64,000 nt of DNA. Origin: Polyangiaceae bacterium. Its GTDB lineage: Bacteria; Myxococcota_A; Polyangia; Polyangiales; Polyangiaceae. The notes beneath the pieces were generated by a model, which worked only from the letters and a program-made list of their open reading frames with translations, was not told the DNA's origin and did no database searches. The DNA is taken from contig JAKLKA010000001.1 of NCBI GenBank assembly GCA_023150915.1, forward strand, positions 62,001 through 126,000, read 5' to 3'. The stretch's first letter is position 1, and the number at the start of each line of letters is the position of its first letter. Below are positions 49,236 to 56,733 of the stretch, piece by piece. The translations under genes were made by a program, and so were the position numbers.

Positions 49236-49934
49236 ATGGTGCGCCTCACGCTCGCGGGCCTGGTGGCTCTGGCCTGTGCGGGCTCTCCGCCGGTTGGCTC
49301 TCCGCCCGTTGGCCCCGAGCCCGACCCTGTCCCAGCTCCTCCCCACGCGACGCAGACCGTTCCCGCCGCGAGCACGGTCGCGCCGGAGGGCGGTCCGCCC
49401 GCGGACGCAGCATTCGATGTCCAAAGTCCGGACGCCGGAGCAGCCCTGGCCGGTGGCGACGCGGGAGCCGACGCGGCTCCGCGCGTGTGCGCAGAAGCAG
49501 CGGACTATGTCCCCTACGTCGTGAACTTCGGACCGCCGGACAACAGCGCGGGGATGGGGCCCTACCAGCGGAGCCCATCGGACGAGGGGCGTCCCATTCG
49601 CGCGACGCTCAGCGCGTTCACGGCGCCCAAGGACCTCGATGCCTTCAACTTCGCCGCCTACCTGCCCTACTACGTGGCGAGCGCCTACCAAGACGCCCTC
49701 GCCACCCGGCCGGGCCTGCGCGGATCGGTTCGCGTGCGGCTGGAGCTCGACGCGAACGGCAAGGCCACGAAGGTTGAGATCAAAGCGCCCGGATTCCCGG
49801 CAGCGTTCGTCGACGAAGTGCGCGAGCGCGCGAGCACCAGGTACGAGATCTGTTCGCCGCTGCCTGCGCCCGCGATCGTGTCGGCGACCATCACCCTCGA
49901 GCCGCGCCGGATCCGGAGACCGGGCCAGCGCTGA
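49236..49934 (+). CDS. Lipoprotein with TonB-C-like terminal domain
   Basis: 232 residues from ATG 49236. Lipobox ALAC. After a Pro/Ala/Asp linker with two GSPPV repeats, the last 70 residues (RGSVRVRLELDANGKATKVEIKA and SATITLEP) have the TonB-C-like pattern used in energy-coupling or AgmX-type motility proteins. It is divergent from the sugar-binding gene, with 78 bases between. The start at ATG 49215 is an alternative, less consistent with the signal peptide. Confidence 0.72.
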   Translation: MVRLTLAGLVALACAGSPPVGSPPVGPEPDPVPAPPHATQTVPAASTVAPEGGPPADAAFDVQSPDAGAALAGGDAGADAAPRVCAEAADYVPYVVNFGPPDNSAGMGPYQRSPSDEGRPIRATLSAFTAPKDLDAFNFAAYLPYYVASAYQDALATRPGLRGSVRVRLELDANGKATKVEIKAPGFPAAFVDEVRERASTRYEICSPLPAPAIVSATITLEPRRIRRPGQR

Positions 49935-50002
49935 GGGGCGCGCCGGATGCGGTGAGCGGCCAGAGAGGGCCAAGCGAGGCCCGACGCCGTGGTCACGCAG
50001 GC

Positions 50003-50040
50003 TGGACCGCTCGAAACCCACCGGTTATACTTTTGGTATG
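50003..50040 (+). promoter_or_regulatory. Candidate mazEF promoter giving a leaderless transcript
   Basis: TGGACC (50003-50008), 17 bases, then TATACT (50026-50031). The usual 6-7 base gap to the start of transcription places it at ATG 50038, so the message would have no leader and no ribosome-binding site. ATAC-TTTTG-GTAT (50027-50039) is a small inverted repeat overlapping the -10 and ATG, a candidate for MazE autorepression. Confidence 0.5.
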
Positions 50041-50274
50041 AAGACCGCAGTCTCCGTGCCGGACCAAGTCTTCGAGGAAGCAGAGCACCTGGCCAAGCGT
50101 CTCCGCCTTTCGCGGAGTGAGCTCTACTCGAAGGCGCTGGCGGAGTACGTTGCGCGCCACGCTCCCGACTCGGTCACCGAGTCCTTCGACCGCATCTGTG
50201 CAGAGCTCGACGCTGAACCCGACGCGGCGTTTCAGCGCGCCGCGCGCGCCGTACTCGAAAGCACGGAGTGGTGA
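50038..50274 (+). CDS. MazE/ChpI-like antitoxin with ribbon-helix-helix domain
   Basis: 78 residues from ATG 50038. MKTAVSVPDQVFEEAEHLAKR plus LSRSELYSKALAEYV is a ribbon-helix-helix fold, as in ChpI/PemI-type antitoxins. The C-terminus (FDRICAELDAEPDAAFQRAARAVLES) is the likely toxin-binding helix. It overlaps the toxin start by a few bases, the normal arrangement for coupled synthesis. It should neutralise the toxin and repress its own promoter. Confidence 0.88.
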   Translation: MKTAVSVPDQVFEEAEHLAKRLRLSRSELYSKALAEYVARHAPDSVTESFDRICAELDAEPDAAFQRAARAVLESTEW

Positions 50275-50621
50275 TCGCTCAAGGTGAAGTCTGGTGGGCG
50301 GACCTGGGGGATCCGGTGGGTTCGGGGCCAGGCTATCGCCGTCCGATTCTGGTGGTTCAAGGCGACGCACTGAACCGCAGCGCGCTCGGCACGGTAGTTT
50401 GCGTTCCGCTCACCTCTCAGCTCAAGTGGGCCGAGGCGCCAGGGAATCTGCTGCTCACGCCTCGGGACACCGGTCTCTCGAAACCTTCGGTCGCCAATGT
50501 TTCCCAGTTGATCGCCCTGGACCGACGGATCTTGAAGCGGCGTGTCGGGAAGGTCCCCCGAGCACGTCTGCTCGCGGCTCTCGACGGTATCGACGTGGTG
50601 CTCGGACGCGGGGCTGGCTGA
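50268..50621 (+). CDS. MazF/PemK-type endoribonuclease toxin
   Basis: 117 residues. Either GTG 50268 or GTG 50271 can start it; the second makes a GTGA overlap with the antitoxin stop. The family signature is QGEVWWADLGDPVGSGPGYRRPILVV, then VVCVPLTSQ and LSKPSVANVSQLIALD. MazF cleaves single-stranded RNA at short motifs. The module looks intact, in contrast to the nearby VapBC. Confidence 0.92.
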   Translation: MVIAQGEVWWADLGDPVGSGPGYRRPILVVQGDALNRSALGTVVCVPLTSQLKWAEAPGNLLLTPRDTGLSKPSVANVSQLIALDRRILKRRVGKVPRARLLAALDGIDVVLGRGAG

Positions 50622-50850: not shown

Positions 50851-52125
50851 TCAATCGGGCCAGGCGAGTGCCAGGCGTACCGTCGCGGGCTTGCCGTCGC
50901 CGGTGCAGGCATACGTCCCCGACGCCAGCGCTTTCTCGACGCACGCTGCATCGCGCTTCGTCTTGGCGCCGCTGAGCACCCGCGCGGTTTGAACCGTGCC
51001 CGCGTCGCTGACCGAGACGTCGGCCACGACGAGGCTGCCGGCCGGGAGGGCACAGCGCGTGAGCGCAGGCGCCGACGAGTCGACGTTGTCGACCTCGAGC
51101 CGGTAAACCGGCGGCTGGTCCTTCCTGTCGGAGGAGCGCCAATCGGTCTCCGAGTGCAGGTTGGTCGACGCCTGCACGACGCGGATCTCCGGACGCGGCT
51201 TCCCGGTCAGCTCTTTCGCCTCGTGCTCGACGACCAGCCGGGAGCGCCCCCGGGTCGCGCTCGCGCCCGCCGACTTCGCGACTGCCGCGCAGAGGCAGGC
51301 TTCGCGCTTGCCGCCCGTGCCGCCCGTGTCGTCGAGATCCTCGAGCTCGCAGCGGCTCGCGCCCTCGAAGATCACGTGCCGGCGCTCGTGGTCCGCGCCG
51401 GCGAAGCAAGCCGCCATCTCTGCTGCCTTGTCGCCGAAAGCCTTGGTTCCGGGGGCGCAGTCGGTGAAGCCCGCCCGCTGGCAGAGCGTGAGCGTGCCCG
51501 CCTTCACTTCGCCGCGCGGCATGAAGCGCCCGCCGAGCCCGCCGAGCAGGCCACCGCCCGCGGGGAGCGCTTTCAGAGCGCTGAAGGCGCCCTCGTAGCG
51601 CTCCGGGCGAGGAAGCTTCGGGTTCCACGGAGCGGCGAGGGTGAGCTGCAAGGACTGCCAGCCGTGGACCTGGACCCAGAGCTCTTCACCCTTCTCCTTG
51701 AAGCCGGAGACGTGCACGAGCTCCGTCGTGAGCCAGCCCTTGCCGCTCACGCGGCGCTGGTTCGGTACGCCGTCGAAGGCGCAGCGCGCACCGCTCTTGG
51801 CGATGGGCCGAAGCTCGGCATCGACCTCCGTGAGCGGAACCAGGTCGTAGTCGCGGAGCGCCTTGCCGAGCGCCGCAGCGAGCTTCTCTCGCAGCGCGCG
51901 TCGCTCGCTCCGGAAGAGCTGCTCGTCCTGGAACGGCAGCACCGCGATCTTCTCGCGTTCCACCTGCGCGGGAGCCGCGGGACTTTGCGGAGCGCTCGCG
52001 AGGGTGCCTGCCGGTGGCAAGGGCGCGGTTGCTGTCGCCGTGGTGGGGCAAGGCGTCGGGCGCACGCAGGAGCCCAGCACGATGCAGCAGGGGACGAGAG
52101 CGATTCGCTTTCTAGGTCGGAACAC
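50851..52125 (-). CDS. Lipoprotein of unknown function
   Basis: 424 residues from GTG 52125. A signal peptide VFRPRKRIALVPCCIVLGSC ends in a lipobox, then a Thr/Ala/Pro linker. The domain begins KIAVLPFQDEQLFRSERRALREKLAAALGKALRDYDLVPL, like the N-terminus of CsgG/TolB-type periplasmic proteins, followed by an unassigned beta-rich region with two Cys pairs and a C-terminal domain (VVADVSVSDAGTVQTARVLSG) of TonB-C type. It overlaps the EamA stop by 14 bases. Confidence 0.7.
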   Translation of the reverse strand: MFRPRKRIALVPCCIVLGSCVRPTPCPTTATATAPLPPAGTLASAPQSPAAPAQVEREKIAVLPFQDEQLFRSERRALREKLAAALGKALRDYDLVPLTEVDAELRPIAKSGARCAFDGVPNQRRVSGKGWLTTELVHVSGFKEKGEELWVQVHGWQSLQLTLAAPWNPKLPRPERYEGAFSALKALPAGGGLLGGLGGRFMPRGEVKAGTLTLCQRAGFTDCAPGTKAFGDKAAEMAACFAGADHERRHVIFEGASRCELEDLDDTGGTGGKREACLCAAVAKSAGASATRGRSRLVVEHEAKELTGKPRPEIRVVQASTNLHSETDWRSSDRKDQPPVYRLEVDNVDSSAPALTRCALPAGSLVVADVSVSDAGTVQTARVLSGAKTKRDAACVEKALASGTYACTGDGKPATVRLALAWPD

Positions 52126-53065
52126 GCGGGCATTGTCGGACGCAGGGGTCGGTCCTGACAAGTCCGTCGCGGGCGGGCGCTGGGCGCGGAGGCGGAACGC
52201 TGCCCGGCGCACGCGCGCGCGCCACGAGCAGCACTGCGCCGAGCACGACCAGCGCCCCGCTCGCGCTCGCGGCGTCGACGCGCTCGCCGGCCCAGACGAT
52301 GCCGATCGCCAGGGCGATCACCGGGTTCACGTAGGCGTAGCTCGTGGCGACCGAGGCCGAGACGTTCGCGAGCAGGTAGACATAGGCGCTGAACGCGACG
52401 ACCGAGCCGAAGAGGCAGAGGAAGACCAGCGCGAGCACTGCGCGCGCCGTCGGCGCGGCCGTCATGTGCTCGCCGCGCGCGAAGCTCACGAGCAGCATGG
52501 CTGCCCCCCCGCTCAGCATCTGGGCAGCGGTCCGCATCATCGTCGTGGCGGGCAGCGCCACGCGCTTGCTAACCACCGAGCCGAGCGCCCAGCCGAGCGG
52601 GGCGAGCAGCGCCATGAGTGTGCCGGACGGGCTCGCGCGCAGCTCGGCTCCCAAGTTCATCATGAGGACGCCGACCAGGCCGAGCAGCACGCCGGCGACC
52701 TCGGCGGCGGCGAGGCGTGCCCCCATGATTCTCTGAACGATCGCCGCCCAGAGCGGCATCGTCGCCACCATCACCGACGTCACGCCCGACGACAGCGACT
52801 GCTCCGCCGCCGCGACCAGGCCGTTGCCGATGACGAAGAACAGCACGCCGGTGAGCGCCGACGACTGCCACTCGACCGGGCGGGGCAAGGCTTCCCCGCG
52901 AAGCCTCGCGACCGAAAGCAGCAGCGCTCCGGCACAGAGGAACCTGAGGGCCCCCATCAGGAAGGGAGGGAAGCTCTCGAGCGCGAGCCGCATCCCGAGA
53001 TAGGTCGAGCCCCAGATCAGGCAGACCGCCAGGAAGGCCAGGACCAAGAGCGCTTTCTTTCGCAT
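52112..53065 (-). CDS. EamA-family drug/metabolite transporter
   Basis: 317 residues from ATG 53065. Ten membrane helices in two EamA halves (LAVCLIWGSTYLGMRLALE, FVIGNGLVAAAEQSLSSG, APLGWALGSVVSKRVAL, YAYVNPVIALAIGIVWAGERV). Family members export amino acids and metabolites. It is divergent from a MocR-type regulator across a 154-base gap with three copies of one motif, so it is probably under that regulator. Confidence 0.93.
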   Translation of the reverse strand: MRKKALLVLAFLAVCLIWGSTYLGMRLALESFPPFLMGALRFLCAGALLLSVARLRGEALPRPVEWQSSALTGVLFFVIGNGLVAAAEQSLSSGVTSVMVATMPLWAAIVQRIMGARLAAAEVAGVLLGLVGVLMMNLGAELRASPSGTLMALLAPLGWALGSVVSKRVALPATTMMRTAAQMLSGGAAMLLVSFARGEHMTAAPTARAVLALVFLCLFGSVVAFSAYVYLLANVSASVATSYAYVNPVIALAIGIVWAGERVDAASASGALVVLGAVLLVARARAPGSVPPPRPAPARDGLVRTDPCVRQCPRVPT

Positions 53066-53094
53066 GACGACCGCGAGTCTGCGTCTCTGGAGCA

Positions 53095-53163
53095 GACCAG
53101 AACAGATGCAGCTATTGTGGACTGCGACCAGTACAGTGTAGGTTCAGGCCAACTGTGCTGGTC
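53095..53163. promoter_or_regulatory. Three copies of GACCAGNACAG between eamA-like and mocR-like genes
   Basis: GACCAGAACAG (53095-53105) and GACCAGTACAG (53126-53136) are direct repeats 31 bases apart, three helical turns. A third copy lies inverted at 53153-53163 (CTGTGCTGGTC). MocR-type regulators such as GabR and PdxR bind pairs of direct repeats, so this is the likely operator for the adjacent regulator. Confidence 0.65.
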
Positions 53164-53219
53164 GTGCCCGGGCCGAGCTGTGCTGCCCTCAGGACCCGCA
53201 GCGGAGCTACGAAGAAGCC

Positions 53220-54662
53220 ATGACCCTCGCTCTCGCCTCGGGCCCCGCGCGCCACCTCTACGAAGAGCTCGCGGACGATCTCGCGGGCCTCATCGCCAAG
53301 GGTGCGCTGCGGTCCGGAGACCGACTTCCTTCGGTGCGCCGGCTGAGTCTCCAGCGCTCGGTCAGCGTCTCGACCGTGCTCCAGGCCTATGTGTTGCTCG
53401 AGAGTCGGGGCCTGGTCGAGACGCGGCCGCAGTCGGGCCATTACGTACGCGCGATGCGCGCTCTCTCGGCCGAGGAGCCGCGCTCGCCCCGGCGCAGCAG
53501 CCAGGCGACGCGCGTGAGCGTCAGCGACCTGGTCGCCAAGGTGTACGGAGCCGCCCGCGATCCGAGCATGGTGCTGCTCGGCGCGGCCCACATGAGCCCC
53601 GCGCTGCTTCCGACCGAGAGCATCAATCGCCGGCTCGCCTCCGTCGCGCGCACTGCCGGGAGCGCCGGGGTCGCCTACGACATCCCGCCTGGGTTGCCCG
53701 CGCTCCGCCGCCAGATAGCGCGCCGCGCCGCCGAGAACGGCGTCGCGATCGGTGCTGACGACGTCGTGACCACCTTCGGCGCCATGGAAGCGCTCCACCT
53801 CTGTCTGCGCGCGGTCACCGCGCCGGGCGACACCGTGCTGGTCGAGACCCCTGCCTACTACGGGATCCTCCAGCTGATGGAGAGCCTCGGCCTGCGCGTG
53901 CTCGAGATCCCGGCGAACCCGGGCACCGGCATCGACCTCGAGCTCACCGCGGCGGCGCTTCGCGAGCACGACGTCGCGGCCTGCTTGTTGGTCCCGAGCT
54001 TCTCGAACCCGCTCGGCGCGCTGATGCCGGACGAAGCGAAGCAGGCGCTCGTCGCGATGCTCGCTCGCCGGGAGATCCCACTCATCGAGGACGACATCTA
54101 CGGCGATCTGCACTTCGATCCCGGGCCCCGCCCGCGGCCGGCCAAGGCCTACGACAAGCAGGGACTGGTGATGCTCTGCTCCTCGTTCTCGAAGACGCTC
54201 GCGCCGGGCTATCGCGTCGGGTACGCCGTTCCCGGCCGATTTCGCGATCAGGTCGAGCGGCTCAAGTTCGCTCAGACCGTGGGCACCGCGACACTGCCGC
54301 AGATGGCCGTCTCGGACTTCCTCGAGAACGGCGGCTACGACCGCCACCTCCGGCGGCTTCGCCGAGCCCTCGCCGCTCAGGTCGCGCGTGTGAGCGAAGC
54401 GATCGTCGAGCACTTCCCGCCAGGCACGCGGATCTCGCGTCCACGCGGAGGCTTCGTGCTCTGGGTCGAGATGCCGCCGGGCAAGAGCGCGCTCGATCTC
54501 CACGCCCGCGCGCTCCGCCACAAGATCAGCATCGCGCCGGGCCCGATCTTCAGCGCCAAGCAGCGGTTCTCGAGCTGCATCCGCGTGAGCGCCGGCTTCC
54601 CCTGGTCCGACACCGTCGACCGCAGCATCGTGAGGCTCGGCCAGATCGCCCGCGAGCTCTAA
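53220..54662 (+). CDS. MocR-type transcriptional regulator (GntR DNA-binding domain fused to aminotransferase fold)
   Basis: 480 residues from ATG 53220. Residues 1-75: winged helix of the GntR family ([48 protein letters not shown]). Residues 110-480: type I aminotransferase-like domain with the PLP-Lys site [14 protein letters not shown], the Asp of [10 protein letters not shown] and the Asn of [10 protein letters not shown]. The PLP aldimine senses an amine metabolite. It is divergent from the EamA transporter and three motif repeats lie between them. Confidence 0.95.
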
Positions 54663-55162
54663 GGGTGCTGGCCCATGGCCTGGGACTTTCCGGCGACGCT
54701 GGCCTCGTGCTCCAGCAGCCAGCGCTTGATCTCGACGCCGCCCGCGTAGCCCGTGAGCGAGCCGTCGGCGCCAATGACCCGGTGGCACGGAACGACGACC
54801 GAGATCGGATTGCGCGCGTTGGCCCGGCCCACGGCGCGCGCGGCACCCGGCCGCCCCAGGCGGATCGCGAGCTGCTGATACGAGAGCGTGGCTCCGTGCG
54901 GGATCTCCAGCAAGGCGCGCCACACCGCGCGCTCGAACTCGCTGCCCAGGGGCGCGAGCGGAAGCGTGAACTTCCGGCGCTCTCCCGCGAAGTACTGCTC
55001 GAGCTCGGCGCGAGCGGCGCGAAACGGCCGTTCGTCTTCCACGTGCCTCGGGTCCCCGGGCCGCTCCTGCCCGGCGGTGTAGAGCCCCGTGAGGGCGACT
55101 CCGTCGGAGGTGAGCCGCAGCCCACCGATCGGGGAAGAAACACGGGTGGTGTAGATCGTCAT
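54659..55162 (-). CDS. Methylated-DNA--protein-cysteine methyltransferase (Ogt/AdaB type)
   Basis: 167 residues from ATG 55162. Family motif [21 protein letters not shown] with the acceptor Cys, and the DNA-binding segment ([26 protein letters not shown]). It repairs O6-methylguanine by self-alkylation. The AdaA-AlkA fusion is the next gene upstream on the same strand, 10 bases away, so the pair forms an alkylation-damage response unit. Its stop overlaps the end of the MocR gene. Confidence 0.96.
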
Positions 55163-55172
55163 GCTCGCCTCC

Positions 55173-56567
55173 TCAGTTGCTCGTCCAAAGGTGCAGGGCC
55201 GCGTACGCGCGCCACGGGCGCCAGCGTTCTGCCAGCGCGAGGCACTGCCGCTCCGACACGCCTCCGAGCGCCTTGCGCAAGCCGAGGTCACCGGCCGGAA
55301 ACGCGTCGGGGCACCCCAGGGCACGCATCGCGATGTAGTCCGCTGTCCAGGGACCGATGCCCGGGAGCTCGGTCAGCGCGGTGCGGATCTGCTCCGCGTC
55401 CGCGCCCTGCGTCAGACGGACGTCCCCGTTGGCCAAGGCAGCGCACAGGGCGCGCAGAGTCCGCGCGCGCGCCGTCGTGAGGCCAATGCCGGTGAGCGAG
55501 CGCTCTGGTGAACGCGCCACCAGAGCGGCGCTGGGCCAGCCGTCGAACAGCTCGACCAGTCGACCTGCGAACGTTCGCGCCGCCGCCACGCTCACCTGCT
55601 GTCCGAGCACGGCGCGGATTGCCAGCTCGTGCTCGTCCCATGCGCCCGGCAGGCGCAGACCGGGCCGGCGCCGCACCAGCGCGGCCAAGCGCCGATCCCT
55701 GCTCAGGTGCGCGTCAATCACTGCCGGCTGCGCGTCCAGATCGAACAAGCGTCGAGCCCTGGCCACCACGGGCGACAACGTCCGCACGAGCGAGGGCGAG
55801 ACGGCGAGCTCGAGGGCGTGGCGACCGGGCAGCGGCCGCACGCGGATCAAGCCGCGCTTCGAGCCGGCCCGAACGGCCCGTTGATAGACGCCGTCTTGCA
55901 CCAGCTCCACGCCGCGAATCGCTCGACCCCCGAGGAAGTCGAGGAGCGCGGCGAAGTCCAAAGGCGGTCGATACTCGAGGGACAGACGCACCCGATCGCC
56001 CTGGTCGCCGCTGGCGCGTGACTCGGTCTTGCGAAGCGCGCTCGGGGGATGACCGTAGCGGGCGACGAACGCGGCGTTGAAGCGCCGTACGCTGCCAAAT
56101 CCGCTGGCAAAGACGATCTCGGTGATCGACAGCTCGGTGTCGAGCAAGAGCTCGCGGGCGAGCGCGAGCCGGCGCGTCGCCACCAAGTCGACGGGCGAGA
56201 CGCCGAGCTCGGCGTGAACGACACGGCGCAGGTGGCGCGAGGTCATCCCCAGCCGCGCCGCCACGGCTTCGAGGCGGGGAGAGGTGTCGACGCTGGCGAG
56301 GATCGCCGCGACCGCGCGACCCGCGCCGTCCTCGCGCTTGGCTCCCGGTGCGCGTTCGGGACGACAGCGGAAGCATGCGCGGAAACCCTCTCGCTCAGCC
56401 TCGGCGGCGAGCACGAAGAAGACGCAACGATCGCGACCCGGAGTCCGCGCAGGGCACACCGGGCGGCAGTAGATCCCGGTCGTCTTCACGCCCACGAAGA
56501 ACACGCCGTCGAAGCGACGATCGCGCGCGCACAGGGCGCGGTAGCAGGAGTCGGCGTCCAGGGTCAC
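55173..56567 (-). CDS. Fused AdaA-type transcription factor and AlkA-type 3-methyladenine DNA glycosylase
   Basis: 464 residues from GTG 56567, the usual family start ([16 protein letters not shown]); the frame also opens at ATG 56618 with 17 more residues. Residues 1-75: Ada metal-binding domain, with the methyl-acceptor Cys region [13 protein letters not shown] and later CFRCRPE. Residues about 80-180: AraC helix-turn-helix. The rest is AlkA with a helix-hairpin-helix ([18 protein letters not shown]) and the catalytic Asp in FPAGDLGL. It senses methylation damage and removes alkylated bases. Confidence 0.95.
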
Positions 56568-56733
56568 GCCCGACCAGTTAGCGCAGCGCCGGCGGGGGCG
56601 CTGGCCGTTTTCGGACATGGCAGCGACTTCGAGATCGGCTCGGCCTGCGGGCGAGGCAGGTCAGCGGGCCAAGGCTCCGCGCCAGGGCGTAACGTCGCAG
56701 ATCGCGCAATGTCAGGGCCGACATCGGAGAGTG

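Follow-up and report, generated by a model that had tools for sequence, protein, structure and literature searches.

Which gene does the DNA between two divergent promoters serve when one gene encodes a regulator and the other a transporter? The question arises in a 64,000-nucleotide stretch of a Polyangiaceae genome, hereafter the window. Here positions 53066-53219 form the exact 154-bp gap separating the start codons of an EamA-family (YedA-like) exporter gene (52112..53065, minus strand) and a MocR-type regulator gene (53220..54662, plus strand). The exporter protein carries two EamA domains (Pfam EamA, 1.9e-39) and scores 308.7 bits against NCBIfam YedA (NF008432, cut-off 270), which places it among EamA/DMT exporters of the YedA group, with transport as its predicted function. 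The regulator joins an N-terminal GntR winged helix-turn-helix (wHTH; residues 13-76, Pfam 1.5e-13) to an aminotransferase class I (fold-type-I) domain (Aminotran_1_2, residues 153-458, 3.9e-30). Its PLP-binding lysine, K325 (SFSKTLAPG), is invariant among ten close homologues aligned and falls on the SFSK motif of LysN-type aminotransferases. With both the domains and the PLP lysine of the MocR subfamily of GntR regulators, the predicted protein is classed there. Two more specific identities were rejected on score: PdxR (237.9 bits against an NCBIfam cut-off of 320) and YczR (250.5 bits against 487.4). Elsewhere in the window, convergent to the MocR gene, lie an Ada-AlkA fusion gene and, overlapping its end, a gene for an O6-methylguanine methyltransferase (54659-56618, minus strand). 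Inspection by eye also found a MazF-like toxin preceded by a ribbon-helix-helix antitoxin-like frame at about 49800-50621 (plus strand).

The gap holds exactly three copies of GACCAG-N-ACAG. An earlier, sequence-only reading had described three GACCAG-A/T/C-ACAG copies, two direct and 31 bases apart and one inverted, and all are present, at 53095 (+), 53126 (+) and 53153 (-). Box 1 (GACCAGAACAG, 53095..53105, plus strand), box 2 (GACCAGTACAG, 53126..53136, plus strand, 31 nt from box 1) and box 3 (GACCAGCACAG, 53153..53163, minus strand and therefore inverted, 27 nt from box 2) are exact copies. The count of three sites is right for exact boxes but incomplete, because orthologues have a fourth. 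In the window this box is degenerate and also inverted (CTGTGCTGCCC / GGGCAGCACAG, 53178..53188, minus strand), and it lies exactly 25 nt from box 3. The same reading proposed spacing by whole helical turns; this holds for boxes 1-2, where 31 nt is about three turns, but not for the 27 nt between boxes 2 and 3 or the 25 nt between boxes 3 and 4. Box 1 also has a conserved 3' extension (ATGCAG, 53106..53111, plus strand), whose CAG recurs at an unchanged offset in 14 of the 21 loci shown. Across the window and loci L002-L046, the extension, as ATNCAG, is conserved beside box 1 alone.

Single boxes are unremarkable, and the cluster in the window is not chance. The exact pattern GACCAGNACAG occurs 12 times in the 8.0-Mb genome, compared with 29 for a reversed control pattern, and three of the 12 fall within 69 bp. 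When the whole genome was searched for two direct boxes separated by 18-24 nt end to start, the window locus was the only match, and this search for a wider regulon found no further direct-pair array. The inverted-pair search returned the window locus and one other match (C40:9622), a rate that the reversed control equals. We also scored the window using a weight matrix derived from homologous loci without it; matrix and controls were seeded alike with the GACCAG-N-ACAG pattern. The three exact boxes rank first to third in 64 kb, with scores of 20.4-21.5 (box 1, 20.4), and the next match scores 12.8. Box 4 scores 8.1, a level reached at only 16 positions in 64 kb. By our arithmetic, chance would put such a score on the expected strand and no more than one base from the expected position about 4 times in 10,000.

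Comparison across homologues ties the boxes to this group of regulators. MocR homologues gathered from 59 related genomes and from named GTDB species gave 91 loci, most of them 43-79% identical, and boxes were counted in the 230 bp upstream of the MocR gene with at most one mismatch to GACCRGNACAG. Upstream of 90 homologues the density was 1.16 boxes per 230 bp, versus 0.030 in other stretches of these loci and 0.028 after shuffling; 32% of upstream regions had at least two boxes, versus 0.14% and 0.02%, respectively. MocR homologues preceded by the boxes are found in Myxococcota, Verrucomicrobiota, Cyanobacteriota and Pseudomonadota, and no box stands upstream of 17 other (paralogous) MocR genes from the same genomes. 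Conservation at orthologous EamA-MocR pairs, on which the sequence-only reading had staked its proposal, is thus found together with absence elsewhere, and its predicted operator for the adjacent MocR, common to the divergent EamA gene, gains strong support from both. Strict arrays sit at the same locus in several relatives carrying the orthologue, and two same-genus genomes had no close MocR orthologue. As in MocR operators generally, two to four repeated boxes lie near the gene and are conserved within the orthologous group.

The spacings, too, are conserved. Among 67 thinned loci, direct-pair spacing peaks at 31 nt (20 loci), the commonest inverted spacing is 27-28 nt (10 loci at 27, 11 at 28), and a second, oppositely oriented direct pair, boxes 3-4, peaks at 25 nt (14 loci), mostly with stronger boxes than the window's box 4. 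These sharp peaks point to an ancestral operator of four boxes, -> -> <- <-, and the fourth box of this predicted operator is kept in degenerate form in the window genome. A few loci (L007, L008, L039) instead separate boxes 2 and 3 by 18 or 11 nt. The variants of this spacing (27, 18 and 11 nt) form a natural series for studying how MocR dimers, arranged head to tail, recognise a mixture of direct and inverted repeats.

The neighbouring gene is less constant than the operator. Divergent partners were found by tblastn with the window EamA protein. A homologue lies beside the MocR gene at 17 loci including the window, all of them myxobacterial and grouped mainly in one part of the MocR tree. 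MocR homologues that lack such a divergent EamA also have boxes, for example in Archangium and Myxococcus; at the verrucomicrobial locus L046 the boxes are kept beside a divergent PhzF-like gene, and at L043 and L070 the MocR homologue is divergent to more distant EamA genes. Since the boxes stay while the neighbour changes, autoregulation appears to be the constant function and the exporter a myxobacterial partner. Outside the myxobacteria EamA is not the constant partner, and only autoregulation is implied everywhere. In the same tree, the MocR of a record named Comamonas sp. KCTC 72670 (L049) nests inside Myxococcus; that assembly is probably mislabelled.

Where, then, are the promoters? 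A consensus scan found no sigma-70 consensus promoter, and the EamA -35 region is without sigma-70 consensus. This agrees with a need for a bound regulator at the promoters, although it is no proof of one. Putative promoters were therefore sought as conserved hexamers. On the exporter side, the putative -10 is CAGACT (53076..53081, minus strand), 13 nt from box 1 and 10 nt before the ATG. Of 16 EamA-paired loci, 10 have an xAxxxT hexamer at exactly this 13-nt distance beyond box 1, compared with at most five at any offset in shuffles. On the regulator side, 13 of 16 loci have TAxxxT 17-20 nt beyond box 4, against a mean of 0.25 and a maximum of 3 in shuffles; these hexamers are mostly TACACT, TACAGT, TACAAT or TATCCT, with start codons a few bases on. 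The window has the imperfect TACGAA, without the final T, as the putative MocR -10 (53208..53213, plus strand), 19 nt from box 4 on one side and 6 nt from the ATG on the other. From such fixed-offset hexamers just before the start codons we infer that each outer box, 1 and 4, overlaps a -35 region. The arrangement suggests that both genes are transcribed without a leader or almost without one. It also makes plausible the separate control of the two genes that had been proposed for the locus, the outer boxes abutting both putative promoters.

Could the boxes be explained without a MocR operator shared by both genes? Across the genome, single boxes are no more frequent than the reversed control pattern, as would be expected if they were chance repeats in GC-rich DNA, but conservation across phyla with fixed spacing leaves this origin a vanishingly small probability; the upstream enrichment, the held-out matrix and the spacing together refute it. 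That a different, unlinked transcription factor binds the boxes is conceivable in principle, as short boxes can be common to several factors. It is nonetheless highly improbable, given boxes that track this MocR group over several phyla, are absent at paralogous MocR genes and elsewhere in the loci, and form direct arrays genome-wide only at the window locus.

A closer competitor accepts the MocR operator but limits it to autoregulation, leaving EamA as a passenger neighbour with its own constitutive promoter. The Archangium and Myxococcus loci and the PhzF-like neighbour speak for this, the operator following the regulator whatever lies beside it. Yet a divergent EamA is retained at 17 loci in the myxobacterial clade, and the distance from box 1 to the EamA-side hexamer is held at 13 nt in 10 of 16 loci even as the rest of the gap changes, so we regard pure autoregulation as unlikely. 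Because of the conservation of the boxes, their absence at 17 other MocR genes and their sharp spacings, the gap is almost certainly the operator of this MocR. Very probably, as predicted from the comparative evidence, regulator and divergent EamA gene are both under its control through a four-box array.

How such an operator would work can be sketched, with binding, ligand, direction of control and export substrate as predictions. MocR dimers would bind pairs of boxes in the array -> -> <- <-, whose consensus is close to GACCRGNACAG and whose spacings are 31, 27 and 25, the fourth box having decayed here. With boxes 1 and 4 overlapping the putative -35 regions of the EamA and MocR promoters, respectively, their occupancy should directly affect RNA polymerase at the two promoters. 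If the regulator works like GabR, PdxR and EnuR, PLP on the conserved lysine would react with a small amine or amino-acid effector, and binding would shift between box pairs; the shift would raise EamA expression and limit MocR. The two promoters are likely to be controlled jointly, with PLP and effector deciding which box pairs are bound, a mechanism proposed for PdxR. A fuller version, which we offer tentatively and consider possible rather than probable, is a bidirectional switch in which one four-box array lies between two near-leaderless promoters, each outer box in one -35 region. The PLP-effector state would move MocR among the 31-bp direct, central inverted and 25-bp direct pairs and set exporter and regulator oppositely, and decay of box 4 would have loosened autoregulation.

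The layout is of a common known type, and the particular regulator-exporter operator seems undescribed in the open literature searched, where no paper contained both 'MocR' and 'EamA'. In the main text of Suvorova & Rodionov 2016 (PMC5320631), -> -> <- is the commonest MocR operator layout, with 245 regulons, and the inverted third copy is thus not the oddity it had been taken for. A four-box class <- <- -> -> (39 regulons) described there may equal the window array, depending on how the box is named. As the same text presents them, MocR operators are repeated boxes with a conserved TGT/TGG core, whose counterpart in the window is CTGTNCTGGTC; DMT transporters like the window's EamA occur in PdxQ and other MocR regulons; and only 19 deltaproteobacterial regulons are included, with no myxobacterium named. 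The present assignment gives an uncharacterised MocR group of several phyla an operator defined by the exact positions of its boxes, by their spacing and by their offsets from the promoters, and it makes the regulator-exporter link and the ligand directly testable.

Individual MocR systems share parts of this design. GabR of Bacillus subtilis and TauR, like the window MocR, combine a wHTH with an aminotransferase domain, and their operators resemble the window in having direct repeats two or three turns apart, according to PMC5320631; they differ in box sequence and in having catabolic targets rather than an exporter. Similarity of the window MocR to GabR (4n0b) is distant (phmmer E 5.7e-18). 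In YczR-YczE pairs (PMC4944035), as in the window, multiple repeats separate a MocR gene from a divergently transcribed gene for a membrane protein, but this protein is DUF161 rather than EamA. Pseudomonas homologues, of the same broad family, share 47% identity over 474 aa; one of them neighbours CcoG, the arrangement reported for mpaR (PMC10790758), a synteny by which we tentatively identify these loci as MpaR. MpaR needs its PLP lysine, responds to cyanide and requires the motif ATCTGAT (PMC10790758); its hallmark is control of ccoN4 in response to cyanide. The Pseudomonas loci belong to a different clade from the window MocR, with different neighbours and without a multi-box array before the gene, so the cyanide signal should not be carried over to the window regulator.
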